The notes under the pieces are model-generated. The model did not search any database. It was not told the DNA's origin and worked only from the letters and a program-made list of their open reading frames with translations. Positions 22-64,000 of a DNA stretch of 64,000 nucleotides are shown piece after piece. Positions within the stretch are counted from its first letter, which is position 1. Each line of letters starts with the position of its first letter. The translations under genes were made by a program, and so were the position numbers. This stretch comes from a virus, in IMG/VR virus record IMGVR_UViG_3300042924_004272, positions 1 through 64,000 of that record; one strand, 5' to 3'.

Positions 22-3000
22 TCCAATAGCTTTCCGCGGTCTTTGCGGTGAGACCCTGTGAATTCAAGTAACTATTCACATACTCTTTTGACGGGTCATC
101 CAACCATTTATCCATTGCTTCGGAAGCGGTTTTGCCGTTGTCAATTTCATTGACTGTCTGTTTAAGGTACTCAACAAAGTCTGGGACCAACATTTCATCG
201 ATGTCGGTGTTGGAACGATCCATCATGCTTTCAGCAAGTCTCTCAAGACTATTGCGTATTCTTAAATTATCTTTTGTCGATCTTTCTGGAAGATCTTCTT
301 TTTCAACCTTTCCTCCACCAAGTTTTTTAACATATTCACCGATGGCGTTTACCGCGGTCTTGTCGTAGAGGTTCTTCGTCCACTCTCCACCAATAGACAA
401 TCCATCACCCTTTAAAGATCCTTTTCTCTCACCCTTAATGATTTTTTCTGCAATTTCTTTGGGTAGAATTTCAGAAAGTTGCTTACCATTAAAGGTGGAA
501 TTTCCGGAAGACACTAGACCATTAGGATCAACCCTCATCCCAGCAATTGACTTACCATCTTTAATTATATCAATTGTTTTAACCTCTTTAGTTGCCCCGG
601 GGAATGAGTATGGCTCCCATTTGATCTCATCAACTTTCTTTGCCAAGTTGTAACGATCTGCTTGAGTCTCTCCACTTGTCCAACCAACCCACTTCTTTCC
701 ACGGGATATGGCATCTGCAAGTGCTCCCTTAAAGAGCCGAACGGTATACTTGTTTGGATCAGAGAATGGGGCTTCTTGTATTCTTGCTCCAAAAACTTTT
801 TTTAATGCCTCTTCAATTGCCCTTTCATTAGAAAAACCAGACGGTTCAAACCCAAATATCTTTCCATCTTGGTCATAGACAACCTTTATTTCACTGCCGT
901 TTCTTTTCTCAATTTTAACAGTCCAGTCACTAGTGTCAGGTAGTTTTTCGGTAGCATAACCACCAGAAGACCTTGCATCCTTGGCACGATCGTTTTGGAA
1001 CTCTTGGATAAAGATACCCTCAACCCCATCTGCATCCGGTCTGTCATCAAGACGCATGTGAGCAACATAGTTTGGAATATCGCTAAAATGACCAGAACGA
1101 TAAACTTGACCAGTCGAAAAATCCCCAGCAAGGGTTCTTGCCTCTTCGTTCCGCTTAACCTCTAAAGCATCTCGTTCAACCATTGCTGCGTCCCGTTCTT
1201 TTGGAGTAACGCTGCCGTCATAAACTATCTTTTGGGCTAGTTCATCTAGTAAAGGTTGATATTTATCAAATATTTCTTTTCTTTTTTGAACTTTATTTTG
1301 ATATGAGGCATCAGGCAAGGTGAGGATAATTTCCCTGTAGTTCTGTCCACCCGGTACAACTAGATCGGGACGATCATACTTTGGTTTTCCACCCATGGAT
1401 TCACTAGTTATTCCATCGAGATCGTACCGCATATTATATGGAAGTTCCCCATACTCTACTTCTTCATTGTTTTGATTTGTAAAAGTGAACTCCTCTAAAT
1501 AAGGGTCATACTCTGTTGTGAATCCATAATTTTTAGCAATTTGAGCAGTCCTTTTTTCTATATTACCTGCTTTACCACCAAGCATCACATCCTCAAATCT
1601 AACTGCACCCTCCTCTTGAAGGTATTGGTCAATCGCTGCTTTGGGGATGGATCCACCATATTGTGCCTCTAGTTGAGGCAGTGCATCCATGATACCAGAA
1701 AACCGGACTTCATCCTTCTTGATACCACCGGAATTGAGAATACCTATAATTTGAGCAGCGCTTGCCTTGTTTGGCATCTTGCCCATTAGGGTATTGCGGA
1801 GTTGGGAGTAGAATGGTTCAACCTCCGGATTCACACGGGGGATCTCCGCATTCGGCATGAAGTTCTCCTTGATCTTGCGGTAGTCGATGGGGAGTTTTTG
1901 AGCATTGGAGATGGCAAAGTCATTCACACGATCCATGCGCATTCCCATGATGACTCGATCAATGGAATCCTGTCCCCTGCGGGTCTTGCTAACCGACCTG
2001 TCGATGTTTGACCCCTTTGTGGACTCATCAAAGAGGTTGAAGATGTCGTTGATGCGATTCTTCTTGAGGAGTGCCATCTCCGGATCCACATCAAGACCCA
2101 CCTCACCCTTCTCACCCCTCTTGTGGTTCTCAAGGACATGAACGATGTCTTCCCAAAGTTTGGAAGTATCTCCACCCCACAGATTGAGTCGATTCCTACT
2201 GGGTTTTGCCCACTCGTTGATCTTGTCAAACATGCGACTCACCGAAATCGTGGTGGCAAGGAAGTTCCCGTCCTTGGTAATCCGGAATCCAAACGGCACG
2301 ACATCACGAATCTTGGGGGCTAGTGCCTTGTACTTACCAGCCTTCATTGCGGCCTGGTATTCGGCAATTATGCGAGTTCCATCCTTGCGGAGGGCAACCT
2401 CGTTGAATGCGGCAATCTTTCTCTTCAACTCCGTGGGAACGATTTCGTTTGGAAGTTCAAGGACTGCCTGTAGTTGTGATGGGCTTAATATCCCAACATA
2501 TTCATCGTCTCCAATGTGACGAACCCTGTTTGGAGACCCATCCTCAACGGCATTTGCGATAGCATCTCTAAGGACTTGACCGCGCTTCCTCGCTCTAGCT
2601 TGGATCTCACGGTTGGATAGAATCTTGGGGGTTCCGTCCGGGTTCCTAGCAATCCTTTGATCTACAGAAATTCTTGTGTTGTCCGGAAGGTTTGCGGCCG
2701 CAATCTCCGGAGCAATTTGCATCTGGTTGCCATTCTCATCCACTAGCATCCCACCCTCAATTCGGTATTGACCAACTAGAGAGTTGAGTGCTGCCGACTT
2801 GGGTACAACAATCTCATTAACGGTCTTTCCATCCTCATCCTTGATGGTAAGAACTTGCTCCTTCTGCCACAGATCAAGACCGCGGTATTTGTTTTGGAGG
2901 ATCCTGCTAGAGAGAAGTTCCGGAACGGAGATCGTAACTTCCGGACCCATTGCGGAGGTAACTTGGGACAAGGAACCATTGTAATCCCTTAATTTCCTCT

Positions 3001-5932
3001 GAAATTGACGAGTAAATGCAAGTGCCTCGGCGGAAATTGAACCACCCAAAACGCTTGAAATCCTCCCTTGGTCATCCAAGAACACTCCCTTTGCATTGAG
3101 TGCCTCTCGGAGTCTTCCAATCAAAGTGTTTTTATTGGAGGTTGCAACCCAATCAACAAACGCTTGACCTGGTGAATCGAGGTCTGCTCGGAGATTTGAG
3201 GTGTCGGAAGATAGTCCAGCAGCCTCGGATAGAATTTCCTCCTTGATGTAGTCCCTAAACTGCTCCTCTGTTGCGAATCCTGCCTTCCACTTATCCCCGC
3301 CGAGCAGGGAAGCATAGTAGTCTCCCATCCTATCGATTGTGGCATTGTCATAAATCCCCTTGGAGACTTCCGTGATGGTTCCATCCGGATTCATTATCTT
3401 TTTACCAAACAAATACTCCTCAAGCGGACCCATCATGCCCCTCACCTCCTTGAAGGTTCTCATCGCATGATTCACTTCATGAATAAGGGTGTTATGGAGG
3501 TTGTTACCAAGTTGACTCTTTACCAAGTCGGAGTTGATTACAACAGAAGGTGCTTTTACATTGGCAGGACGAAGGTGTTGGGGACTATCGGAATATGTTC
3601 CCTCCGACATGGCAAAACCACGCTGCCCCATCGCTTGCTGATAGAATGAGTTGAATTGGTTTACCGTCTCCTGTGCTTGGTTCAACCTCTGTTGATCTTG
3701 GTCACTTAAATTGGATGCCCCAGCAAGGGATTGGAGGGCATATTCAGCATTTGTAAGTGTGGAACCCCACTTGTCACGTAGGTGTTGGAGCATCTCAACC
3801 GGAGACAACAACTTTATTTCGATGTTGTTGAGTCCTGCCGCTTCCCCGGTAGTCTTTGCCTGCTCAAAGGCATCGGCTAGAGTTAGATCAATTCTGCGTT
3901 GGTACTCCCTCATCGCCTCTGGGGACATCTTTGAAACAAAGTCACGGTCTCCCTTCACCTTGTTGATTTCGGCATTGATCCCGGCAACAACATCATCTTC
4001 ACCCCTGTTTTTTGCTAGATCCGCTTGGATCTCTAGGTTCTGGATGTGACCATCAAAAGCCCCAATAACAGAGTTAAGATTACCAAACTCGTTGGCCCTG
4101 CTAATGATGTCCGGAGAAGCAGTTTTGCGGAACCTCTCAATGTCGGCATCCTCATCCGCGCGGCGTGATGCCATGTCGTCCGCCAAAAATGCATCAATCT
4201 TTCCCTTTAGGGAAACCCTTGGATCAATTGCGGTGATTGCCTTCTCACCAAGTCTAGCACTACCAATTGCTCCAACCATTGCTCCGGTTCCTGCAACCTG
4301 TCCAAGCGTTTCGGCATTCTCAATGTCTGGCAAACCAAGTGCTGTTCCAATGGCAACACCACTTGTTCCGTGGCGGGCAACAGATTCAAGTTGCCTAAAG
4401 ACCCAATCCGCTGTTCTAGCGGCATTCCTGCGCCTTGAAGTAAAGGCTGGCTTGAGGGGGCCTTTCTCAATGCCCTCCGCGGCGGCCTTTTCCGCTGCTC
4501 TTTGTGCCGCTGCTTGTGCCTTTTCGGTGCCAGGACCAAAGACAGTGCGCATGAAGTCACCGGATCGTGGATCCTGCCCAGCCCTCTCAATGATTCCAGT
4601 CCTGGAACGGAGTCCGGTTTCGTCGATCTGACGACCGATGTCTCGAGCAACCCTTCCAACCCCCTCAAGGATCATTCCTGGGCGCCGAGTCGCGGCAACG
4701 ACAGGTTCCGCAAGTTTCGTGATGAAACTATCCTCTGACCCCACCAAGAAATCGCTAAGTTTCCTTGCTGCCTTTTGAGTTACTTCCCCGGTTCCACGAA
4801 CCACGGCACCAAGACCCTCAATTGGGTTGAGACCAGCGATGGTTGGTTTGGTGAGTCCTTTGAGTCCGAGTTCAATTGACTTGTCGAAAACCTTTGAGGA
4901 TGCACCGGCAAGCGGACCGGCAAGCATGAAGGTTGGGTCTAATGGACTTAATAGATTTCCAATTAGAGCAACATTTTCGCTAGGGATGATTGATTTTTCT
5001 TTTAATTGTTGGGCTAGATCCCTTGAGAATTGTTGCCCAGGAACTCCCAACAATTCACCTAGTTTCTCGCCAGCGGTTGTTTCCGCAAGATTTGCAAGAG
5101 CAGCGGAAGTTCTTTCCGGAAACTGCTTGTAGTCTTCTTGCTCCATCTGACGCATTTGCTCACGAGCAATAGATTGCTGGAATGACTCTTCTTTTGTTTG
5201 CGGTTTTAGGTCTGTTACACCAACACCAGCAAGTCTTTCCGAAACCAACTTGCTTGCTAGACCAGTAAGACCTCCTGCCTTGAGGGTCTCAAAAGCAAAC
5301 TTTCCAGTAGGGGTCTCTTGAAGGATGTCTGTTGGGGCCGTCCCAAACATTGAACCCCTAACTGCTGCATTGATTACTTCCTCACCGGCTTGTATTGCTC
5401 CAGAAGCAGCAGACCTAGCCTCAAAGATCCCTTTCTTTGTTGCTTCCTCAAAATCCTTTTGCCTTTGTTCCGGTGTCTTTCCAGAGATGTAATTGACAGC
5501 AACATCCGGAAGGGAAAAGTCTAGATACTTTAGTGCTGCTTGCTTTTCTAGTTCCTTCCCAGCACTCGCAAGTTCCTTTGCTCCCTCAAAAACCTTTGTA
5601 CCCATTTCACCAAGACTAGAAACAAACCCTTTAGCGACTGCACCGGCTTGCTCAAGCATTGGACGAGAACGATCTGCCTCAAAAATAGTCTTTTCCTGCT
5701 CCATTGAGAGGGGTTGACCGCCAGCCTTTCTCCTTTTTAAAGACTCCGGATCGGTGTCGTACTTGCTCTCAAGTTCGTTGAGGAAAGACTTGGGTTGCTC
5801 CACGGGAGCATTCTTGTACTTGCTTTCTAACTCCCCAAGGAATCCTGTAGTTGGTTCACTTGGTTTTACCGCATCTTCCTCCTTTGGAGTTTCTTGAGAA
5901 TGCTTCTTTTCAAGTTCGTCAAGGAAGCCCAT
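1..5932 (-). CDS. Giant polyvalent virion protein, N-terminal part (runs off left edge)
   Basis: The frame is open from the ATG at 5932 to base 1 (about 1,977 codons) and has no stop in the window. It probably continues in the frame ending at 56958. Three copies of a short motif, [GS]FLxELExK[YH], lie at residues 2-10, 30-39 and 49-58. A Gly/Ala-rich hydrophobic stretch lies near residue 545. A zincin-type metal-binding motif HEVNH is at residues 818-822 (3467-3481). An N-F-M-P motif at residue 1358 (1853-1864) is the first of ten such motifs. The remainder is mixed alpha-helical sequence I cannot assign. The gene follows internal virion protein genes with a 3-base gap. Large multidomain proteins at this place in phages are usually carried in the virion and act in the host cell early. 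That role is inferred; the metalloprotease motif is seen directly. Confidence 0.85.
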   Translation of the reverse strand, partial: MGFLDELEKKHSQETPKEEDAVKPSEPTTGFLGELESKYKNAPVEQPKSFLNELESKYDTDPESLKRRKAGGQPLSMEQEKTIFEADRSRPMLEQAGAVAKGFVSSLGEMGTKVFEGAKELASAGKELEKQAALKYLDFSLPDVAVNYISGKTPEQRQKDFEEATKKGIFEARSAASGAIQAGEEVINAAVRGSMFGTAPTDILQETPTGKFAFETLKAGGLTGLASKLVSERLAGVGVTDLKPQTKEESFQQSIAREQMRQMEQEDYKQFPERTSAALANLAETTAGEKLGELLGVPGQQFSRDLAQQLKEKSIIPSENVALIGNLLSPLDPTFMLAGPLAGASSKVFDKSIELGLKGLTKPTIAGLNPIEGLGAVVRGTGEVTQKAARKLSDFLVGSEDSFITKLAEPVVAATRRPGMILEGVGRVARDIGRQIDETGLRSRTGIIERAGQDPRSGDFMRTVFGPGTEKAQAAAQRAAEKAAAEGIEKGPLKPAFTSRRRNAARTADWVFRQLESVARHGTSGVAIGTALGLPDIENAETLGQVAGTGAMVGAIGSARLGEKAITAIDPRVSLKGKIDAFLADDMASRRADEDADIERFRKTASPDIISRANEFGNLNSVIGAFDGHIQNLEIQADLAKNRGEDDVVAGINAEINKVKGDRDFVSKMSPEAMREYQRRIDLTLADAFEQAKTTGEAAGLNNIEIKLLSPVEMLQHLRDKWGSTLTNAEYALQSLAGASNLSDQDQQRLNQAQETVNQFNSFYQQAMGQRGFAMSEGTYSDSPQHLRPANVKAPSVVINSDLVKSQLGNNLHNTLIHEVNHAMRTFKEVRGMMGPLEEYLFGKKIMNPDGTITEVSKGIYDNATIDRMGDYYASLLGGDKWKAGFATEEQFRDYIKEEILSEAAGLSSDTSNLRADLDSPGQAFVDWVATSNKNTLIGRLREALNAKGVFLDDQGRISSVLGGSISAEALAFTRQFQRKLRDYNGSLSQVTSAMGPEVTISVPELLSSRILQNKYRGLDLWQKEQVLTIKDEDGKTVNEIVVPKSAALNSLVGQYRIEGGMLVDENGNQMQIAPEIAAANLPDNTRISVDQRIARNPDGTPKILSNREIQARARKRGQVLRDAIANAVEDGSPNRVRHIGDDEYVGILSPSQLQAVLELPNEIVPTELKRKIAAFNEVALRKDGTRIIAEYQAAMKAGKYKALAPKIRDVVPFGFRITKDGNFLATTISVSRMFDKINEWAKPSRNRLNLWGGDTSKLWEDIVHVLENHKRGEKGEVGLDVDPEMALLKKNRINDIFNLFDESTKGSNIDRSVSKTRRGQDSIDRVIMGMRMDRVNDFAISNAQKLPIDYRKIKENFMPNAEIPRVNPEVEPFYSQLRNTLMGKMPNKASAAQIIGILNSGGIKKDEVRFSGIMDALPQLEAQYGGSIPKAAIDQYLQEEGAVRFEDVMLGGKAGNIEKRTAQIAKNYGFTTEYDPYLEEFTFTNQNNEEVEYGELPYNMRYDLDGITSESMGGKPKYDRPDLVVPGGQNYREIILTLPDASYQNKVQKRKEIFDKYQPLLDELAQKIVYDGSVTPKERDAAMVERDALEVKRNEEARTLAGDFSTGQVYRSGHFSDIPNYVAHMRLDDRPDADGVEGIFIQEFQNDRAKDARSSGGYATEKLPDTSDWTVKIEKRNGSEIKVVYDQDGKIFGFEPSGFSNERAIEEALKKVFGARIQEAPFSDPNKYTVRLFKGALADAISRGKKWVGWTSGETQADRYNLAKKVDEIKWEPYSFPGATKEVKTIDIIKDGKSIAGMRVDPNGLVSSGNSTFNGKQLSEILPKEIAEKIIKGERKGSLKGDGLSIGGEWTKNLYDKTAVNAIGEYVKKLGGGKVEKEDLPERSTKDNLRIRNSLERLAESMMDRSNTDIDEMLVPDFVEYLKQTVNEIDNGKTASEAMDKWLDDPSKEYVNSYLNSQGLTAKTAESYWKVAITPE

Positions 5933-48218: not shown

Positions 48219-48377
48219 TTAGATCCCCCACCTAGTGGAGGGGTAACCCTTAAAACCCTTTGCAAGTTTGAGTTTGAGTTTGGATGAATCCCGGTTTTCA
48301 ACAAGCCGCCAAAACTTGAAGGCATCAATGTTTTCTCCCAGGGAGTTGATATATCCGATTAGTGGTATGTGGTTCAT
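48219..48377 (-). CDS. Tiny protein, 52 aa
   Basis: MNHIPLIGYINSLGENIDAFKF... with a C-terminal Lys/Leu-rich stretch. ATG overlaps the kinase stop (ATGA at 48374-48377), which supports translation. No motif recognised. Confidence 0.55.
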   Translation of the reverse strand: MNHIPLIGYINSLGENIDAFKFWRLVENRDSSKLKLKLAKGFKGYPSTRWGI

Positions 48378-49012
48378 AGTAGTTCTGCGATTTGGGTTTC
48401 TAGTTCGTAGATAGATCCGTTGTTAAGGATGCAGTTATCGAATTCAAGGATTTGACCCTCACTCTTGTGTCTTGAGAGTGGGATGGGGTCATGATCGCGG
48501 AGCACCCTAAAGACACGCCCTCCTGCCTCTTTTATTGCCTTCACCTCGTTTGGGAACCTTGCGTCATCGATGACGACGGACTTGGAAATATCGAGATGTT
48601 TTTGGACAGTGTGCATGGTGAGATCAACCCAAAAGTTATTGGATAGGAACTCCCTACCCCACTCTGTCCCTAAAGTTTGCATACAAAACCGGGGAGTCTT
48701 TCCTGCCAACTCATCACAAGCGGATTCTTTAAGGGACCCATCGAGCATCTCATGGATTCTAGCATGCTCTATTCCCGCCTCAAACAAGAGTGCACGGAGC
48801 ATTGATTTTATGCCACTGGCAAACCGGAGTTTCACAAACCCGTGGTTTCTCTCAATGATGTTCCCAACCGTTGTCTTTCCAGAACCGGCCGCGCCGATTA
48901 GACCAATGAGTTTTGGTTTGTTTAACTGCCTCTTAAGGTCTTGAATCTCCTCCTTGAGGGTTCGGATGAGAAGCATGTTGTCGTTGTATACCGACGAAAT
49001 TTCTTGAACCAT
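48374..49012 (-). CDS. Deoxynucleoside monophosphate kinase-like, 212 aa
   Basis: N-terminal coiled coil (SVYNDNMLLIRTLKEEIQDLKRQLNK), then the P-loop LIGLIGAAGSGKTTVG. Kinase features follow: WVDLTMHTVQ, VVIDDARFPNEVKAIKEAGGRVFRV (D-D-x-R-F-x-N-E, as in T4-type dNMP kinases). Phosphorylates dNMPs for phage DNA synthesis. The ATG at 49012 (MVQEISS) immediately follows the stop of the 58-aa gene; the longer frame is rejected. Confidence 0.85.
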   Translation of the reverse strand: MVQEISSVYNDNMLLIRTLKEEIQDLKRQLNKPKLIGLIGAAGSGKTTVGNIIERNHGFVKLRFASGIKSMLRALLFEAGIEHARIHEMLDGSLKESACDELAGKTPRFCMQTLGTEWGREFLSNNFWVDLTMHTVQKHLDISKSVVIDDARFPNEVKAIKEAGGRVFRVLRDHDPIPLSRHKSEGQILEFDNCILNNGSIYELETQIAELL

Positions 49013-49013
49013 A

Positions 49014-49190
49014 TCAATTGTCCTTCTTGCGGGTTGAAAGCATGTTTCGTCGAATGAGATCAAGACGCTGCGGATTTGCTTTCTTTCCCATCTCATCTGC
49101 CTGGGGAAGCGCATGGGATCGTGCCGCCATTGCTTTTTCCGATCCTTTGATGGGTTTGGAAACCCTCTTGTATGCATGCTTTGACTTCAT
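49014..49190 (-). CDS. Small basic protein, 58 aa
   Basis: MKSKHAYKRVSKPIKGSEKAM..., ending LIRRNMLSTRKKDN. Basic and helical. The stop is one base before the kinase ATG, so probably coupled. Function unknown. Confidence 0.6.
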   Translation of the reverse strand: MKSKHAYKRVSKPIKGSEKAMAARSHALPQADEMGKKANPQRLDLIRRNMLSTRKKDN

Positions 49191-50401: not shown

Positions 50402-52633
50402 TTAGCCAATCTCTTTTGGTTCGTCAACCTCTAATTCTTGCCTCACGGCAATGGACAGAGGTTTGTGGAGGTTGATCCCTTGTTCTAACTTCCGTTCACG
50501 CCTCGCCGCCCAAGTCTCAAGAGACTCCTCATCTGACAAGGTTGGGGTTGGCCAAGACCTTGGATCTCCATTGCCATGCATCTGTGCTTGCAACTGGAGG
50601 TCAGTTTGATGTTTCCGACCGTCTGGTTTCTTGAAGAACTTCCCGTTGAATGTCTCCGGATCTACCGTCTCCGGTGCCATAACCGTTGTGGGAGTGGACC
50701 ACTCTTGTTGAGCAATTCTACCGACTTGATTGGGTAGTTGTTCTTGACCCCCATCTCTACGGGGTTGATTAGACATATTATGGTCAGACTCCATTGGGGT
50801 TGCCCAATCTTGGTTGACTTGTTCGGATAGTTTTCCAGTATTCATGGCTGCACCCCAATGCCCCTTTGGATCCATTTTAGATAGATCCCTTGTTGGGGTA
50901 ATTATGTCCATGCAATTTGGGGTTGCCCAACTACTAGGAGCAGATCCGGTCGATGAGGATTCGGAAGGCTCGCTCACAAGACTGGGGGACGACTCCGTTT
51001 CCAAGCATTCGGAGTTCTGATGCACGATCGCAATTGGATTCGTACAAAGAGGGTTGACCCATCCGATTGGAAGACCCATTAGGGCCTCGACCCACCTTGG
51101 ATTTAATTTTGCCGTCGACTTGACTTGAGGAACCTTCTGACTCTCGTGGATAAACTCCCCAAGAGTCGCTAGTCCATTCTCCACCCTGTCCGCGTTGCTC
51201 GGAGCATTCGGAGTGCTCTTGTAATCCGTTGTCCGTGGTGTTGGGAACTCCTGCACTTGTACTTGCAGCGGCATGCTGAACGACTCCGGAAGTCTCTCCA
51301 TCCTCGCCTTGAAAGTCTCGATGTTCTCGTCGTTGGACGATGCCCTTGGAGTGCTCCATGTTTTGAATGCCTCCATGGTCTCCGGATCCACTTGCTCCCT
51401 GAGATTGCATGGGTTGGTTCTCCCAGGACGCATCTCCGTGATGTACCTCTTGAGTGCCTCCGGAGACCGTGGTGGCAACGTGTCCATTGTGTTGGGGGTT
51501 GCCCAAGAAGGATTGGTTCCTTTGATCTCCTCCGCAAACACTTGATCCACCGTTAGACATTGGGTTTTTGCTTTCTCCCCCGTCACAAGACCCTTCACCA
51601 CTTGACGATGAGGAATAGCTCCCCGGTCGTGAGTCCCCGGAGCAAAAGTCTGCCAATTTCTTTGGGATTGCTCCTCCGACAACCCTTGGTGGTTCCCACT
51701 GGTATTGGCGCTGTCCGGGTCGGCTTGGCCATGCATGAGTGCCATTGTACCAAGAGGTATCGTGACACGATTGTAGTTTGATCCCCCCAATGTGTTGTGC
51801 GCCTCTTGTGCTGTCATCGTCGGCCACATCGCTTCCCCGGAACGGGACTTCTTGCCCTTCTCCCGTGTTCTCTCCCCCACGATGGCAGGATGATTGCTCA
51901 ACCCCTGTTGACCATAGTTCGCTTGATTGGAGATCTTGTCCGCTTCCGCTGTTGTCGGTGTGGGCCATGCCCCCATTCCGGTCTCCACATCCCGTAGTTG
52001 CTTTCGGTGAGCATCCCTGTCTGGCGATGCTGCGCCATTGGCGTCGGAAGTCTGCGCTGTCGGCCAAGTCGTTACGGACTCCAAGGATGAAGACACGCTT
52101 GCGCCTGTGCGGAGCGCCGCACTCTGACGCTGAGACCACTGTTGCCTCTGCGTGGTAACCCACCCTTTCCAACTCTCGGAGGACATGGAGCAGAACCGGG
52201 GTTCCCGCAGGGTCTCTCCATCCTTCTCCCGCGAGTTTGGAACTAAGGATTCCTTCCACGTTTTCAAGGAAAACAAATCCTGGGAGTCCAAGTCGGACGA
52301 GACCGTCGAGGATGTAGGGGAAGAGATGCCTTGGGTCTTCATCGCCTGCTCGGCGGCCTGCACTTGAAAAAGGTTGACAGGGAAAGCCGCCTGAAAGGAT
52401 GTCCACCTTTCCGTAAAATTCTTCCCAAGGGAGGGTTTTAAGATTCGTCCACACAGGAGCTGACTCCATGAGTCCCGCTTCCATGAGGCTAACCACGTTC
52501 GAGACGGCGAAGGACTCGATTTCCGAAACAAGGACTGTGCGCACATCTCCGATTGCTCTTTTAAGTCCGAGATCAATGCCTCCGTATCCGAAGCAGAGGG
52601 AAGCGTGTGTAAGGGTTTTGGTAGTATCCACAT
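50402..52633 (-). CDS. W[AP]TP-repeat protein overlapping the Dcm gene, 743 aa
   Basis: Long frame starting ATG at 52633, two bases upstream of the methyltransferase GTG. It overlaps that gene over its whole length and runs 532 bases further. It has a coherent repeat, W[APS]TP or FPTP followed by T/N and D (WPTAQTSDANG, WPTPTTAEAD, WATPNTMD, FPTPRTTDY, WATPNCMD, WPTPTLSD), and LNPRWVEALMGLPIGW (about residue 545). An N-terminal half has WKRDSWSQLLCGRILKPSLGKNFTERWTSF. This repeat and the LNPxxVExLMGxPxGW segment recur in a family I recall from phage methyltransferase loci, so the frame is likely real. Function unknown. Confidence 0.7.
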   Translation of the reverse strand: MWILPKPLHTLPSASDTEALISDLKEQSEMCAQSLFRKSSPSPSRTWLASWKRDSWSQLLCGRILKPSLGKNFTERWTSFQAAFPVNLFQVQAAEQAMKTQGISSPTSSTVSSDLDSQDLFSLKTWKESLVPNSREKDGETLREPRFCSMSSESWKGWVTTQRQQWSQRQSAALRTGASVSSSLESVTTWPTAQTSDANGAASPDRDAHRKQLRDVETGMGAWPTPTTAEADKISNQANYGQQGLSNHPAIVGERTREKGKKSRSGEAMWPTMTAQEAHNTLGGSNYNRVTIPLGTMALMHGQADPDSANTSGNHQGLSEEQSQRNWQTFAPGTHDRGAIPHRQVVKGLVTGEKAKTQCLTVDQVFAEEIKGTNPSWATPNTMDTLPPRSPEALKRYITEMRPGRTNPCNLREQVDPETMEAFKTWSTPRASSNDENIETFKARMERLPESFSMPLQVQVQEFPTPRTTDYKSTPNAPSNADRVENGLATLGEFIHESQKVPQVKSTAKLNPRWVEALMGLPIGWVNPLCTNPIAIVHQNSECLETESSPSLVSEPSESSSTGSAPSSWATPNCMDIITPTRDLSKMDPKGHWGAAMNTGKLSEQVNQDWATPMESDHNMSNQPRRDGGQEQLPNQVGRIAQQEWSTPTTVMAPETVDPETFNGKFFKKPDGRKHQTDLQLQAQMHGNGDPRSWPTPTLSDEESLETWAARRERKLEQGINLHKPLSIAVRQELEVDEPKEIG
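50934..52631 (-). CDS. dcm: C5 cytosine-specific DNA methyltransferase, 565 aa
   Basis: Motif I HASLCFGYGGIDLGL, motif IV GGFPCQPFSSAG with the catalytic Cys, motif VI VFLENVEGI, motif VIII RRKRVFILG, and motif X near the end (MLGNGVVPQ). The region between VIII and X (about residues 190-540) is a Gly/Ser/Gln/Asn-rich low-complexity stretch instead of a normal target-recognition domain. This matches the frame shared with the W[AP]TP protein. Start is GTG at 52631. It would methylate cytosine in phage DNA, for example to evade host restriction. Confidence 0.9.
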   Translation of the reverse strand: MDTTKTLTHASLCFGYGGIDLGLKRAIGDVRTVLVSEIESFAVSNVVSLMEAGLMESAPVWTNLKTLPWEEFYGKVDILSGGFPCQPFSSAGRRAGDEDPRHLFPYILDGLVRLGLPGFVFLENVEGILSSKLAGEGWRDPAGTPVLLHVLRELERVGYHAEATVVSASECGAPHRRKRVFILGVRNDLADSADFRRQWRSIARQGCSPKATTGCGDRNGGMAHTDNSGSGQDLQSSELWSTGVEQSSCHRGGENTGEGQEVPFRGSDVADDDSTRGAQHIGGIKLQSCHDTSWYNGTHAWPSRPGQRQYQWEPPRVVGGAIPKKLADFCSGDSRPGSYSSSSSGEGSCDGGESKNPMSNGGSSVCGGDQRNQSFLGNPQHNGHVATTVSGGTQEVHHGDASWENQPMQSQGASGSGDHGGIQNMEHSKGIVQRREHRDFQGEDGETSGVVQHAAASTSAGVPNTTDNGLQEHSECSEQRGQGGEWTSDSWGVYPRESEGSSSQVDGKIKSKVGRGPNGSSNRMGQPSLYESNCDRASELRMLGNGVVPQSCERAFRILIDRICS

Positions 52634-56957: not shown

Positions 56958-59900
56958 TCAAGGGTTAATCATGACTGGTTCTATTTTAAGGTCTTTGAGT
57001 ACATCCGACACTCGATCCAATAGAGGAAGAACCGTCTGTAGGGGTTGAGTTTGCACCACTCCTGCCTTGTTACGGATTCTAGGGTCACTAGTGAGTTCAT
57101 CAACATTGTAAATGTTGTTGAGGAAACCGATTGGGCGACCTGGGACTTGCCATCCATAGGAGTCATGGAAACTACTAGCGAATGGTTGTGCATTCTTTTT
57201 AACTTCAAACAATGCAACTACAGACCCAAATTTAAGGTCAAAGAATCGATCGTCAGCAAGATCCCGGGCAATGTCTTTTGGAAGGAGACCAATTTTCTCC
57301 AATTCTTTCGCTGACACCGGGTGCCTTTTCCTCTCCAATTGAACCAAGTAGGGGGCAGTATCTTGGAAATTCAATTGTTTTGCATACACCGCATTTTTAA
57401 ATGAATTCCAATTCTGTATGTTTGCCCACTTCTCTTTTGTGGGTTTGGAAAGACTTGCCGCAGTACTTTTGGTAATTGCGTCGCTAATCGACTTTATTTG
57501 TGCGTCAAGATCCCTTTTGGTTAAGATTTTTGCCTTAACCGCTGCCTCCATACTTTCCACATATCCCTTCTGTCCGGTTGGATTCTTGAGATGATTGATA
57601 GGACTTTGAAGGGTAGGAGCAACAAGAAGACTATCCGTTCCTTGTTTTTCCATTTCTTGATTTGCTCGGAGCATGAAACGATCTGCCGTATCTTCAGTGG
57701 TGAATGCCCAAATTCCAGTATCTTGAAGATAAATGAACCCAGGACCACCTTGTCCTTTGACACTCAATTGTTGTTTTGCTCCTGTTGGACCCACATAGAG
57801 TTCTCCAATACCCATACGGTCACAAGGGAGGGCAATAATTGGTTGGTCTTGATGGTCTTCAAGATTCACGCCTGGTGCAGGCATGAAGTTTGCCATCATT
57901 TGTTTTGTGAACTTGAATGGTTTAGATTTATCTTTAGGGAATGTGAACCCCTCATTATCTACCGTGGGTTGCTCACTCTTCGGCATGAACTGAACTCCAT
58001 ACTTGGTCATGAAACGAGGATCCTGTGGAGATGTGAACACTGGGTTCTTTGCCATCACGAGACCACCGATCTGAATGACTCGATCCGCATTGACCACTGG
58101 GTTCCCAGTCTTGCGATCATAAAACCATGAGTTCTTAAATGGATTCATGCCGACCTGAATGTAGGTGGGGTCACTCATTGCTGCCTCTGCTTCCTTCCTT
58201 GCTGCCTCCGGAGTAGTTGCCTCCCACTTTCCTACCATACGAGCATATGAAGTCTTGTTCTTCTCCCCAGTCGCAATGTCCATGGACACCGATGGGTTGG
58301 TGACAAACTCAACATCATTGGCGATGGCAACGGATTCGTATCCCTTGATCCTACCGAGTTTTTGTTCCTTGGCATCATGGACAGATGCAACCCAAACCCC
58401 ATAGTCCTTGTATGCCGGGATGTCTAATCGGAGTCCTACCAAGTCTCCATCCTTGAGATTCTCATTTGCTTTACCAATATCTGCAACTTTGTCCTCATTT
58501 AGTGCCATCTCCATCTCCTCCCTCGTAGCGGGTTTTGGAACCTCATCCATCTGACGGTAGGGCATGTACTTTCGGATGACCTTGAATAAGTCTTTCTGGT
58601 CAATCTCACCCTTCTGGTACTTCTTAACTGCATCAACTACCTCTGGGGTGCGTTTGGTGACATTTCGGTATGCGGTTTCCATGTCCTCCCCCCTCTTGGT
58701 AGCAGGCATGAAGTAAACCGTGGCATCCGTCTTTGTGGATTTTGGAACCTCTGAAAGTTCAACCAATGTGCGGTCACCTTGTTCGGTGATCTTATCCACC
58801 TTGTATTTACCGGAAACTAGGACTTCTTTTTGATCCACTAGGGAACGATCTTCCATGCCTTCAAAAATCTTATCATATGGAATTCTAAAACCCTTAGTTG
58901 CTCCCTTGATTTTGTATGTGATTGGAAGGTCTTCCAAGGACTCGTTTCCTAGAGGTTCCCAAATTGCCCTTTGTGCTTCCACATCTGTCTCTAGGTTGTT
59001 CTCACTAAAGGAAGAAAAACTAGGACCGGTAGATTCGTTTGCCAATTCAACAATGGAACCCTCTTTCACGTCCTCATGTTTCTGGAAACCTAGTCTCCAG
59101 AGATCCATTGGTTCTGGAAGTGCTCGATCAGCCAATTTCGACATTGCTGCGGTATCCCAAGACATGTTTGTCATCACATGGTCTTGAAGCATTCCAATTT
59201 GTTTTTTGGTAAGTGTTGAAAACTCTTCCTCACCCCTCTTGGCAGCAGGCATGAACCTAATGTCCTGCTTGCTAGTATCAAATCGCTGCGAGAGAGGGAT
59301 TAGCTTGCCTTCGTTGTCGTAGGTTGCGGGGTCTGCGGATTTAATGCGAGACGGATCTGTGACTGCGTAGATATCTGCCCACTTATCTGCTTGATGGTAA
59401 TCTGCATCAGTAATCTTGAGGTATGCCCTAATAAGCGTGTCCCCATAGGCAGGGGGATATCCCTTTGCCTTCATTTTCTCTAACAGTTCCTTGCCTGTGT
59501 CAGTTGTCTTGGCAAACCAAGCAGAAGGTCGAGGGAAGTTTGCATTAAGTCCCCCTGCTGATGCAGACCTACCCAGATCAAATGCATCACCTTCTAGTTT
59601 TTTAGCAGTAGTACGATGCTCAACAATTCCAGTAGAATACCCCGCCTTCCTCGCCGCATCATCAACTAGCCTCTGCGCCTCCTCCATGTCGCCTGACTCA
59701 ATAGCCTTAGCATGTGCCTCGTCTAGTCTGGCAGAAGGCATGAAGTTGATGTTCGCTTGAGTGACATCAAACCTCTTTGATGGAGGGATGACCTGACCAG
59801 AGATTGTAGTTGTCTCCGGTTCAATCGATTTGATCTTGGTCGGATCAAAGACGGCAATGTTGTCCGGAGTGCTGCTTCCTTGCCCATCCTCACGGACATA

Positions 59901-62900
59901 AAACCCATCATATCCGGATTCTTGCATCCACCTAGTAATGGAGGGCATTTCAAGAATGGCATAGTTCTTGTCTTTAGCAAACGATAGCAAGGAATCCAAG
60001 TCATCCCAAGTAAAACGACCATGGGGACCTTCCTTACCTCCCTCAATGACTTCAAAATACTCTTGGTTGTACCTATCCAAACCAAAGTCACGGAACCATT
60101 CTTCAAACTTGGAAAAGTGCTCCGGATTAGCCGCATCAAAAAGGTTAGAGGCATTCGTGGCAACCTCACGGATTGGTTTTTGTCCTCCCTCTGTGAACAT
60201 CCCAGCAACCCTTCTTTCTTGTGCCATGAAAGTCATTTCTTGTTCTGGCACATTCCCCATCATGTGAGGTTTATCACCGATCATTGCCTTGTAACCAAAG
60301 ATATTGTACCCAGCATCCCTTGCTGTCTGGTGGATGATCTCCCTCTCCGCTTCCGTGTCACCCTTGGCATACGCTTCCATGTAACCAGAATCCCTTGCAG
60401 GCATGAATTGTGGACCCTGGTATCCCTCAAACATGGGACCAAAGACATTGCGTACAAGATCCCGTGGGATGCCGTTTCCAATGATCTTGATGCCGAGGTT
60501 TTGGTCAAGTGGGAGTGGGAATGAGTCAGGAAGTCCGGACATGCGAGCCTTTGCCCTTGCTGTGACTCGTTTGAAGATTCCCCCTGGGAGAAGAATGCGG
60601 TCAACATTCGCAGGTGTTGCTTTAAATGTGAAGGCGGGCTCATTGGCCATGCGATAATCAAAGACACCGCGGAGTCCCCCACCCGGGAAGAGGATGGGTT
60701 CCGGAACATTGAAAGGATCGATGCCGTCTGCTCGTAGGGTGGAGATGAGATAGTTGTTCTCCGGATCCTTCTTACCCCTAATTGGTGCATCCGGAAGATC
60801 CTCAATGATGTCTTGAACAACCTCGTACCAGGATGGGCCCTTTACTTTGACAGGTTCCGGCAACTCACCATCCATGATGGCACGGAGTAGGTAGCGCTTG
60901 CGGTCGGTCGGTGCTCCGTACTCATGGGCATTGTAGATACCCTCGTCAAAGGTATATCCAAGACGATCAAGGGTTGCCTTGATGATGTCTAGTGCCTTCT
61001 GATCCTTGCCAGTTGCATACTCCTTGACATTCTCAAGGGTAAAATAATTTGGGGTGATAAGATCAATGCCATTAGCGATGGCATTTGCGCTACGGATGTC
61101 TAAATCAGACTCTATACCCCCTTGGGTGGTTGCTTTAAGTGCCGAGTAGTTTTTACAAACCGGAGATGCGTGGATGTAATCGGAATCTTTAAATTGATTG
61201 AAGTCAACTTGGGTAACATCTCCCACGGTGACATGATCACCAAATGCCGCGGCATAGGCGGCAGCAATTTGAGGATTATATTCAACGGCATGAGTGTTCT
61301 GGATCAACCCTTCAAGTCCCGCGGCATGGAGACCACCGCCAGCAAATAAAGCAAGTGACTTGGGGCCACGAGGGAAAATGAGATTTAACTCCCTCTTAAA
61401 ACCCTCATCCCTCTGCGTCGATGGCATGAAGTTGATGCCATCATATTGATTTAACTGCTCTAGAGGGATTGGTTCTGATGCAACTCGTCCAACCTCTGGA
61501 AGATCCTCTGTGCCTCCTCGTTGAGGGAACCTAGCAAGGAGTCCCTCCCTTCCGGGTTTTCCGGATCGGAGGTACTGGTTGACTTGGGCGTCAGTGAGAG
61601 ATTCTGCAGGGGTTTGTCCATAGAGTTGGGTGAATTCTTCTAAAGTAATCCCGGCCTTGGCAAGGAGTTTTTGTTCCTTTTGTGGTGTGAGATCATATCC
61701 GGTTCCAGAGATGCTGTAGGCAATTGTAGCAACCGAAACGGGTTTGCCAACCACATTTTCAAGGCTCTTTAGGGTCTGACCAGAGGTGTAGGTGTCATCC
61801 GCAAGGATGATTTGAGTGCCTTCCGGAGGGGTTTCCCCACTCCAGGTGTGGATTGTCCTTGCCCTCTGATCCGCGGTTGCTCCGGTGTTGTGTGCTGTCG
61901 AAACCTTAAACAGACTGCTCCAGATTGGGTATCCCAACTCAACGCTCAATTGCTTGGCTAGAGCAAGGGGAAGGGCATTCATCGAATCGGTTTCACGAGT
62001 GATCACTGGGAGGATTACCACCGGCTCGTTGGGGTCAACCTGGTCACGGATCCTTTGCACCATGGCGGGGGATACAAGTTTCTTGACGATCTGGAACGCG
62101 GAATCAGCATCCCCCTTGTATTTTGCGTCCTCAAACCCGGGTTCTTCCTTGAGTTTTCCAAGTCTCACACCCGCTTGAACATTGGCCGGCATGAAGTTGA
62201 TGCCCCCATATTGATTGGTGGTTGGTCTCTCTAGACTAAGATCATGAACAGGTGGTCTTCCAGCAACCTCATTAATCCTGTTTTCAAGCACCTTGCTATA
62301 GTACCTGTTTTTCCGCATCTGTTCTTCAACCTCGGCGATCTGTTCTGCAATCTTTGCGGCAACTGCCTCGTCCCCACCGTCAGAAGTCCCGTTCAATTTA
62401 GATAGTTTATTCCTAAGTTTATTAAACTCATCGTGAACTTTACTAAACTCATCAAAGATTTTTGCTCTCTCTTCCATCTTTTGCTTTTCTCTGGCCTCAT
62501 TGATTTTAGCCTCATTAGCGATTGACCAAGTTGCATCCATGACAGATGCGGCCATGCTTTCGGTATCAAAACCAAATAAATTTTTGACTAGGTTGACCAG
62601 ACTGTCCCACATCGATGACTCAACTCCATCTCCCTTTAGGGATTTAAGCATCGTTTGAAATTGTTTGCTAGACCAAGTCTGTGCAACAAACTCATGGAGA
62701 TTGGCCAAACCATAGTCACCACCTTTCTTGGTAGTCTTGTCCGGACTAGAAGAGGCAATTCCTTTAACTTTTCTAAGTTTATCCTTGCCCTCAACTTTTA
62801 ATTCAATGAATTGATCTCCGGGTTCATATGTGGTTCCGACCCGGTTTGGGCGGGATGAAGAGCTATACTCAGATTTACCAAGATTCCTAAAAGCATTTAC

Positions 62901-64000
62901 GCTGCTAGGATCAATGTCTATAACAGACTTATTATCATTATTGATACTAAGTTTGTGTTGAATTCCCGCTTTTTCTAGAAGTTGTGACACTTCATTCAAC
63001 CCCTTTGGATTGTAGTGGTATGTTTGATACCCACCATCTTCTGTCTTCTGGAATGTATGCCAAGTTGGGAATCCGACCTTAATCTCTTTCCCTCCGAGGT
63101 ATTTTGCACTTACTCCCAACTGATCTAGGGCACTTCGATAGAGGTTAATCAATCGTTTGATGCCAGAAGGGGTGTTTGGATTATCTAGTGCCTGTTGCAG
63201 TGCATCATTATAGTCCTTTCCTGTCTTGCCCTCGGCTCCTGGCACATACTTGTAAATCTCATCCGCTGTCAAGGTATGCGCGGTTTCATGAATCATGGTC
63301 TGTATCTTAACCGGAGATCCCTTTGGCAAATGAACAGAACCTCGAGACCTGTATGCCCTGCCCAAACCACCCTTAACCATACCCTTTTCAGTCGGCTTGA
63401 CTATGTCCTTGTCAAGTTGTGGGAAATCCAATTCAGAAAGTTTTTCCGCAACACTAATCCAAGTATCACTAAGATTTAATGGGTTATTCTCATCTTTTGC
63501 CTTCTGGATTAGGTCTTGCAGAACTTGTCGGACTGGTTTTTCAAACAGATCGTCCGCTTTAAATGTGTTGTAGAGAGTATCTACATTTATAGTGCCTTTA
63601 AGTTGTCCGGATGCTTGAATTGTTTTCCTTTCATTGATGGAATCAATGATCTCTCCCCGGGTTGCGCCATCCGGAATAGAAAGACCATAGTATTCCGCAA
63701 GTTTAGAAAGTGACTCCTTACCAAAAGACTCCAAACTAGTTCCACTAGACACTAGACTTGCGGTAAGTTCCGCGCCTTCCGGTGCGGCAGGCGTGACTTC
63801 AAGTGATTTTCTTTTGGGTGTGTAATCCGCGGATACAGTTTCATCTTGTTTTGGGGAGTACTTACCCAAAACTTTAAATGCCTTGGTAATGGCACCCTTG
63901 AACTTCTCCTCATTGTATTCACCTCTAGCGCGGGAAGGCATGAAGTTGGCTTGCCCTGCGGTACGAACAACTCGTTCCATCTCCGGAGTGATGGCGACCT
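56958..64000 (-). CDS. Giant polyvalent virion protein, C-terminal part
   Basis: Open from the right edge to the stop at 56958; numbering here starts at the Met at 63980. Domains in order: zincin HETAH (231-235); phosphoribosyltransferase about 610-780 with IILADDTYTSGQT; C5 DNA methyltransferase about 868-1190 (LFAGGGLHAAGL, catalytic SPVCKNYS, ENV, DRKRY, GNGIP); ADP-ribosyltransferase-like domains about 1195-1390 (GYDGFYVRED, NIAVFDPTKIKSI) and 1416-1570; an ExxE/STS-type ART about 1580-1750 (FSSFSENN, QKEVLVSGKYKV); an unassigned domain 1760-1995 and a C-terminal domain. F-M-P motifs sit at 13, 596, 851, 1192, 1413, 1576, 1757, 1998 and 2032, mostly between domains. These are hallmarks of phage polyvalent proteins delivered with the DNA. 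It probably joins the frame ending at base 1. Confidence 0.85.
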   Translation of the reverse strand, partial: VAITPEMERVVRTAGQANFMPSRARGEYNEEKFKGAITKAFKVLGKYSPKQDETVSADYTPKRKSLEVTPAAPEGAELTASLVSSGTSLESFGKESLSKLAEYYGLSIPDGATRGEIIDSINERKTIQASGQLKGTINVDTLYNTFKADDLFEKPVRQVLQDLIQKAKDENNPLNLSDTWISVAEKLSELDFPQLDKDIVKPTEKGMVKGGLGRAYRSRGSVHLPKGSPVKIQTMIHETAHTLTADEIYKYVPGAEGKTGKDYNDALQQALDNPNTPSGIKRLINLYRSALDQLGVSAKYLGGKEIKVGFPTWHTFQKTEDGGYQTYHYNPKGLNEVSQLLEKAGIQHKLSINNDNKSVIDIDPSSVNAFRNLGKSEYSSSSRPNRVGTTYEPGDQFIELKVEGKDKLRKVKGIASSSPDKTTKKGGDYGLANLHEFVAQTWSSKQFQTMLKSLKGDGVESSMWDSLVNLVKNLFGFDTESMAASVMDATWSIANEAKINEAREKQKMEERAKIFDEFSKVHDEFNKLRNKLSKLNGTSDGGDEAVAAKIAEQIAEVEEQMRKNRYYSKVLENRINEVAGRPPVHDLSLERPTTNQYGGINFMPANVQAGVRLGKLKEEPGFEDAKYKGDADSAFQIVKKLVSPAMVQRIRDQVDPNEPVVILPVITRETDSMNALPLALAKQLSVELGYPIWSSLFKVSTAHNTGATADQRARTIHTWSGETPPEGTQIILADDTYTSGQTLKSLENVVGKPVSVATIAYSISGTGYDLTPQKEQKLLAKAGITLEEFTQLYGQTPAESLTDAQVNQYLRSGKPGREGLLARFPQRGGTEDLPEVGRVASEPIPLEQLNQYDGINFMPSTQRDEGFKRELNLIFPRGPKSLALFAGGGLHAAGLEGLIQNTHAVEYNPQIAAAYAAAFGDHVTVGDVTQVDFNQFKDSDYIHASPVCKNYSALKATTQGGIESDLDIRSANAIANGIDLITPNYFTLENVKEYATGKDQKALDIIKATLDRLGYTFDEGIYNAHEYGAPTDRKRYLLRAIMDGELPEPVKVKGPSWYEVVQDIIEDLPDAPIRGKKDPENNYLISTLRADGIDPFNVPEPILFPGGGLRGVFDYRMANEPAFTFKATPANVDRILLPGGIFKRVTARAKARMSGLPDSFPLPLDQNLGIKIIGNGIPRDLVRNVFGPMFEGYQGPQFMPARDSGYMEAYAKGDTEAEREIIHQTARDAGYNIFGYKAMIGDKPHMMGNVPEQEMTFMAQERRVAGMFTEGGQKPIREVATNASNLFDAANPEHFSKFEEWFRDFGLDRYNQEYFEVIEGGKEGPHGRFTWDDLDSLLSFAKDKNYAILEMPSITRWMQESGYDGFYVREDGQGSSTPDNIAVFDPTKIKSIEPETTTISGQVIPPSKRFDVTQANINFMPSARLDEAHAKAIESGDMEEAQRLVDDAARKAGYSTGIVEHRTTAKKLEGDAFDLGRSASAGGLNANFPRPSAWFAKTTDTGKELLEKMKAKGYPPAYGDTLIRAYLKITDADYHQADKWADIYAVTDPSRIKSADPATYDNEGKLIPLSQRFDTSKQDIRFMPAAKRGEEEFSTLTKKQIGMLQDHVMTNMSWDTAAMSKLADRALPEPMDLWRLGFQKHEDVKEGSIVELANESTGPSFSSFSENNLETDVEAQRAIWEPLGNESLEDLPITYKIKGATKGFRIPYDKIFEGMEDRSLVDQKEVLVSGKYKVDKITEQGDRTLVELSEVPKSTKTDATVYFMPATKRGEDMETAYRNVTKRTPEVVDAVKKYQKGEIDQKDLFKVIRKYMPYRQMDEVPKPATREEMEMALNEDKVADIGKANENLKDGDLVGLRLDIPAYKDYGVWVASVHDAKEQKLGRIKGYESVAIANDVEFVTNPSVSMDIATGEKNKTSYARMVGKWEATTPEAARKEAEAAMSDPTYIQVGMNPFKNSWFYDRKTGNPVVNADRVIQIGGLVMAKNPVFTSPQDPRFMTKYGVQFMPKSEQPTVDNEGFTFPKDKSKPFKFTKQMMANFMPAPGVNLEDHQDQPIIALPCDRMGIGELYVGPTGAKQQLSVKGQGGPGFIYLQDTGIWAFTTEDTADRFMLRANQEMEKQGTDSLLVAPTLQSPINHLKNPTGQKGYVESMEAAVKAKILTKRDLDAQIKSISDAITKSTAASLSKPTKEKWANIQNWNSFKNAVYAKQLNFQDTAPYLVQLERKRHPVSAKELEKIGLLPKDIARDLADDRFFDLKFGSVVALFEVKKNAQPFASSFHDSYGWQVPGRPIGFLNNIYNVDELTSDPRIRNKAGVVQTQPLQTVLPLLDRVSDVLKDLKIEPVMINP
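63980..64000. repeat. Terminal overlap, right copy
   Basis: Matches bases 1-21 with one mismatch (63999 C against base 20 T). In both copies the minus strand reads in frame as K-V-A-I-T-P-E, so the overlap continues the giant gene. Confidence 0.75.

Follow-up and report, generated by a model that had tools for sequence, protein, structure and literature searches.

A phage DNA (cytosine-5) methyltransferase probably divided between two overlapping reading frames

DNA (cytosine-5) methyltransferases (C5-MTases) made of two polypeptides have a characterised precedent in M.EcoHK31I, which recognises YGGCCR and in which the large subunit carries motifs I-VIII and X and the small subunit carries only motif IX (PMC3404938). 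The target-recognition domain (TRD) of this enzyme was placed in the large subunit in the same paper, and the small gene is reported to lie inside the large one in another frame (Lee et al. 1995). In M.AquI the catalytic motifs I-VIII are likewise separated from the part holding motif IX and the recognition region is split off, but motifs IX and X are both on the small subunit. The multispecific phage C5-MTases (SPR, SPbeta, phi3T, H2 and M.phiBssHII) are instead single chains read in one frame, with tandem recognition modules between motifs VIII and IX, measured specificities and, in M.phiBssHII, modules at separated sites (PMC8936443); their modules are exchangeable. A second protein read out of frame within a phage methylase gene is represented by the ShiLan element, in which an HNH endonuclease lies out of frame in a phage methylase (PMC11855218). 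Here we examine a 64,000-nucleotide stretch of a virus (IMG/VR record IMGVR_UViG_3300042924_004272, positions 1 to 64,000; hereafter the window) in which a C5-MTase frame and a longer frame encoding W.TP repeats occupy the same 1.7 kb. The original prediction held that both frames are genuine, that they start two bases apart, that the low-complexity part of the methyltransferase over the repeats looks as if shaped by the other frame, that such full-length dual coding is rare and that the repeat protein is of unknown function. Our analysis confirms the observation. The interpretation is supported only in part, since the repeat protein is probably not a separate protein but the missing portion of the same enzyme, the arrangement recurs in many viral contigs and in isolate phages and prophages, and a nested split C5-MTase has already been characterised.

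Two open frames from one ATGTG

On the minus strand, an ATG frame of 743 codons (beta, 50402-52633) and a GTG frame of 565 codons (alpha, 50934-52631) begin at a single ATGTG (52629-52633), with the ATG of beta at 52633 and the GTG of alpha at 52631, and no clear Shine-Dalgarno sequence upstream. The shorter frame lies entirely inside the longer. Alpha carries C5-MTase motif I (FGYGG, 52578-52592), motif IV with the catalytic cysteine (GGFPCQPFS, 52365-52391), motif VI (ENVEG, 52251-52265), motif VIII (GAPHRRKRVF, 52089-52118) and, at its very end, motif X (LRMLGNGVVPQ, 50982-51014). It belongs to phrog_363 and matches PF00145 (E 1.7e-31), but only over profile positions 3-167 of 324, and its TIGR00675 score of 97.6 bits falls below the cut-off of 100.65; the catalytic motifs of a C5-MTase are therefore present in this chain, but a TRD, motif IX and motif X are not found together in it. 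Between motifs VIII and X lies a low-complexity linker with one conserved island, WPSRPGQRQYQWEPPRVV (51678-51731). Beta has an N-terminal signature, WKGWVTTQRQQWSQR (52127-52171), read out of frame within the catalytic domain of alpha and conserved at 85-100% in its columns, followed by six W.TP modules (51110-52066) that overlap the linker of alpha, a motif-IX-like segment, KLNPRWVEALMGLPIGW (residues 509-525, 51059-51109), and four further modules (50402-50929). The ten repeats, of the form W/F-x-T-x, begin at W190, W223, W270, W377, W426 and F463 and then at W569, W610, W645 and W694. The last four lie downstream of the stop codon of alpha and are single-coded, a feature that the original prediction did not point out.

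Beta returned no match in Pfam or NCBIfam, and a beta profile searched against the PDB and Pfam gave nothing convincing, but beta matches phrog_1008 (E 9.2e-15), a family labelled "DNA methyltransferase". The phrog_1008 profile also picks up motif X of alpha (profile 292-319), and phrog_10223 picks up, weakly (E 0.1-0.2), LNPRWVE of beta followed at the expected distance by motif X of alpha, which suggests that in other phages the two pieces sit in one chain.

To identify relatives, we searched viral contigs with each frame. Alpha alone as query found seven contigs, and the alpha of one relative (locus L002; L-numbers denote the loci compared) found 25, partly the same; loci recovered with alpha alone also carry an open beta. 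A 10-residue beta pattern from the motif WVTxQRxEYSxR matched 404 viral-contig stretches, of which 390 were confirmed as relatives with a beta profile, so the family is common; 80 of these were kept and read. In the 111 loci where both parts could be identified, the relation is the same +1 frame in every one, with starts two bases apart in most. The LNPxWVE motif is in beta in about 100 of these loci and in alpha in none, whereas GNGVVP of motif X is in alpha in 103 and in beta in four. Sixty of 82 distinct loci have ATGTG and most of the others an equivalent such as ATGACATGG. AUGUG can start both frames in E. coli (PMC9841429), and the shared start is thus a plausible dual initiation site, although this is an inference and many loci, including the window, lack a clear Shine-Dalgarno sequence.

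The nested +1 overlap is present in isolate phages of Paenibacillus, such as Bloom and Shelly, and of Lactobacillus/Lacticaseibacillus, Bacteroides, Salmonella, Burkholderia and Xanthomonas, in a Klebsiella phage-plasmid record and in phage C75C1, as well as in Paenibacillus, Lihuaxuella, Sphingobacterium and other bacterial genomes, and recurs in phages and prophages of Bacillota, Bacteroidota and Pseudomonadota. In L125-L127 and L131, however, the openness of the +1 frame alone is only modestly significant. Database records usually annotate only one of the two frames, or treat beta as hypothetical or as a second methyltransferase. Paenibacillus phage records annotate both, that of phage Shelly with the note "g55 internal gene", whereas the record of Pseudomonas phage PMG1 (L123) annotates only the beta frame, ending LNPAHSRWLMGLPPEW, and leaves the fully open catalytic alpha frame without a gene. 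Literature searches restricted to open-access papers found no description of the phage arrangement.

Selection on both frames

One frame full of stops in relatives had been named beforehand as the outcome that would refute dual coding, and we did not find it: in 33 non-redundant relatives neither frame holds a stop. When the synonymous codons of alpha were permuted, with protein and codon usage kept, beta was expected to have 5.9 stops per locus on average; with those of beta permuted, alpha was expected to have 13.8; and the third frame averages 19.6. For the window alone, the corresponding permutations gave 4.5 stops in beta, with only 2 of 500 as open as observed, and 24 stops in alpha, with none of 500 as open. 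Beta proteins are also more alike than alpha dictates (identity 0.296 against 0.216 +/- 0.007 expected). By contrast, canonical single-chain C5-MTases (L156-L161) have 12-28 stops in the same frame, although one of them, the dcm gene of Enterococcus gallinarum plasmid pEG002 (L156, 1474-2826), which has an in-frame motif IX, nevertheless has an open +1 run of 182 codons, more than any of 300 synonymous permutations. The window itself provides a further control. A 2340-aa ORF (56958-63980, minus strand) contains at residues 876-1182 (60435-61355) a second C5-MTase-like domain with full PF00145 (4-321) in one frame, SPVCKNYS at the motif IV position and other frames full of stops, plus a weak Phage_L5_gp82 match. 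The phage thus appears to encode two cytosine methyltransferase-like proteins, and a deoxynucleoside monophosphate kinase (PF21448, phrog_139; 48374-49177, minus strand) lies near the overlapping pair, as in phages that handle unusual nucleotides.

To determine which frame carries constraint along the overlap, isolated substitutions in 28 independent pairs of close relatives, all distinct loci, were sorted by their effect in each frame and compared with opportunity. Over the catalytic domain, changes that alter only beta are frequent (2.49 times expectation) and those that alter only alpha are rare (0.63). Over the variable zone this reverses (0.78 and 2.35; log2 ratio -1.56, 95% interval -2.06 to -1.05), which agrees with the original prediction that the repeat-overlapping part of alpha is shaped by the other frame. 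Over LNPxWVExLMGLPxGW the contrast is extreme (0.14 and 3.29), and downstream, over motif X, alpha is again the constrained frame (2.61 and 0.61). Even in the catalytic zone beta is constrained, since beta-changing substitutions stand at 2.49 against 7.06 for those silent in both frames. Alignments were made on alpha proteins, which works against finding constraint on beta, and neighbouring genes with a made-up +1 frame show no such constraint (3.15 for changes in that frame against 1.88 for silent ones). Selection thus runs alpha, beta, alpha along the DNA, in exactly the order of catalytic domain, recognition domain plus motif IX, and motif X of a C5-MTase.

A split-enzyme model and its alternatives

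These findings lead us to favor a model, to which we assign a probability of about 0.85, in which the overlap encodes one split C5-MTase as two polypeptides. In this model alpha supplies motifs I-VIII and X, that is, the M.HhaI-type large domain that binds AdoMet and holds the catalytic cysteine, joined by a disordered linker that mainly needs to stay open. Beta would supply an N-terminal helical part that docks on alpha, an array of W.TP...L..QV modules and motif IX, that is, the small, DNA-reading domain. One initiation site would probably feed both chains, which would assemble into an active enzyme. Our analysis establishes that both frames are coding, that constraint passes from alpha to beta and back to alpha, that the IX-like motif is only in beta and motif X in alpha, that alpha is predicted to fold as a large domain only, that natural single-chain homologues hold the same parts in one frame, and that modules are shuffled between loci; the production of the two proteins, their docking and complex formation, catalytic activity, what is methylated and what each module does are inferred.

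Several lines of evidence support the idea that beta is the missing part of the same enzyme. The AlphaFold model of a compact alpha homologue (L079) matches M.HhaI at Z 20.5 over 197 of 327 residues, with the linker at pLDDT below 50, and corresponds to a large domain without the small one. Beta alone folds poorly: a model of the L079 beta built from 58 sequences had a mean pLDDT of 56 and no usable fold. LNPxWVExLMGLP resembles canonical motif IX (RRLTPRECARLMGF in the canonical enzymes L157 and L160), and a matrix made from six canonical sequences has its best window exactly on LNPxW in 60 of 72 beta proteins. No HMM comparison is significant, however; the C-terminal IX-X segments of three single-frame forms did not match PF00145, and the one searched against the PDB matched no methyltransferase there. 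The assignment of motif IX in beta therefore rests on pattern, position and single-frame homologues rather than on proven homology. The strongest argument comes from these natural single-chain forms, which have motifs I-VIII, W.TP repeats, LNPDWVECLMGFP (or LSAAFAEWMMMLP) and motif X in one frame. A 419-aa protein from a Pelosinus MAG (L150) reads I-VIII, three WPTP repeats, LNPDWVECLMGFPIGW and then motif X. Gordonia phage Gudmit (L130, 1284-2669) also has PTP repeats, LSAAFAEWMMMLPAGW and motif X in frame with the catalytic part, but it appears intermediate, with PTP repeats in both frames, as if an indel had moved the beta tail into alpha. Brevibacillus and Alicyclobacillus homologues (L133 and L154) are staggered, with IX and X both on beta. 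The same enzyme therefore exists nested, staggered and fused. In four loci (L003, L004, L023 and L050) alpha closes early and beta runs into motif X, as after a single indel, an explanation that is not proven; L050 has a run of nine C in a module, and assembly error, phase variation or decay could each account for these cases. In L066 (alpha ORF 2991-4712) alpha carries an insertion of roughly 150 residues between the region overlapping the motif IX of beta and motif X, beyond the beta stop.

Each repeat unit consists of W.TP...D, a variable loop of roughly 10-40 residues and then L..QV. Because the shared W.TP motif otherwise chained everything together, units were clustered without it: 321 units from 83 loci fall into 91 families at 50% identity, of which 29 occur in several loci, in changing order and number, with 1-8 units before motif IX; the compact loci L079 and L104 have one or two each. 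Fifty-two unit pairs are more alike than their catalytic domains by over 0.15, for example 100% against 63%. The window has six units before motif IX and four after, and units after IX occur in only 7 of 83 loci. Such mosaic exchange is how the TRDs of multispecific Bacillus phage methyltransferases behave. We therefore think it somewhat more likely than not that each unit is a recognition cassette, in which case a chain with about ten would methylate several sequences and protect the phage from several host restriction enzymes.

Other readings of the locus are possible but less likely. That alpha is a complete methyltransferase and beta an overprinted protein with an unrelated role, for example in anti-restriction or DNA binding, would fit the absence of Pfam, NCBIfam and PDB matches for beta and the fact that overprinting of new proteins is common in viruses. 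We consider it unlikely, since alpha has no motif IX in any of the 111 loci and models as a large domain without the small one, constraint moves to beta exactly where C5-MTases have their TRD and motif IX, and single-chain homologues contain the beta repeats and the IX motif between VIII and X. It is similarly unlikely that the N-terminal overlap is passive and that only the C-terminal half of beta and the ends of alpha matter, with beta started internally. In Paenibacillus phages the nested gene is annotated as starting about 200 nt inside alpha, and the N-terminal zone of beta is less constrained than the rest, but in this subfamily the beta start is fixed at ATGTG or an equivalent next to that of alpha, and the N-domain columns (SLxxRSKP and W..WVT.QR.EYS.R) are conserved beyond what alpha imposes.

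A single polypeptide made by two programmed frameshifts, from alpha into beta after motif VIII and back before motif X, would account for the alternation of functional motifs along the DNA, but we regard it as very unlikely. Beta keeps its own start next to that of alpha in essentially all relatives and is constrained across the catalytic zone too (W..WV..QR..YS.R is 85-100% conserved), and alpha stays open through the whole variable zone; a double shift needs neither. Finally, overlapping frames of a G+C-balanced coding sequence can stay open by chance, as 0.4% of permutations do for the window alone, but a chance frame or annotation artefact is refuted by the absence of stops from both frames in 33 diverged loci, by the substitution pattern and by the neighbouring-gene control, and it is at odds with the stops in canonical single-chain enzymes and in the second C5-MTase-like domain of this phage.

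If the split-enzyme model is correct, a large group of phage C5-MTases is mis-annotated: the chain called Dcm lacks its DNA-reading part, which lies unannotated or is called hypothetical in the other frame, and cloning "the gene" with recoded codons would destroy the enzyme. The locus would be among the clearest cases of long same-strand dual coding, because the two frames take turns in carrying the functional domains of one enzyme, and the survival of nested, staggered and single-frame versions makes the origin of split enzymes testable. The modules would offer many natural candidates for new m5C specificities. Our data further raise the possibility, which we judge about as likely as not, of a multispecific methyltransferase whose catalytic and recognition subunits are read in two frames from one ambiguous start, with about ten exchangeable cassettes that must stay open in both frames and even continue past the end of the catalytic gene, and which would represent a widespread, unrecognised phage strategy for evading many restriction enzymes at once.

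Relation to described methyltransferases

The ShiLan element is an inserted homing element, whereas here the second frame overlaps the whole methylase and, in our model, supplies enzyme parts. The two proteins of the window belong to phrog_363 and phrog_1008, but the phage records that annotate both describe no split enzyme. As in the multispecific phage C5-MTases, several exchangeable modules lie between motifs VIII and IX, but here they are in a second frame and on a second chain, and their role in recognition is inferred. The layout of the window is not that of M.AquI, because motif X is on alpha; motifs IX and X lie together on beta only in L133 and L154. In its distribution of motifs the locus corresponds to M.EcoHK31I, with a chain that has I-VIII and X but not IX and, read in another frame of the same DNA, a chain that alone holds the IX-like motif, LNPRWVEALMGLP. 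The constraint over the variable zone lies on beta, pointing to a TRD there rather than on the large chain, where it was placed in M.EcoHK31I, although this inference is from substitutions alone. A nested split C5-MTase is thus already known; what differs here is the ATGTG start shared with alpha, the array of putative recognition modules on beta, a beta that is longer than alpha and continues past its stop, and the breadth of the arrangement in phages.
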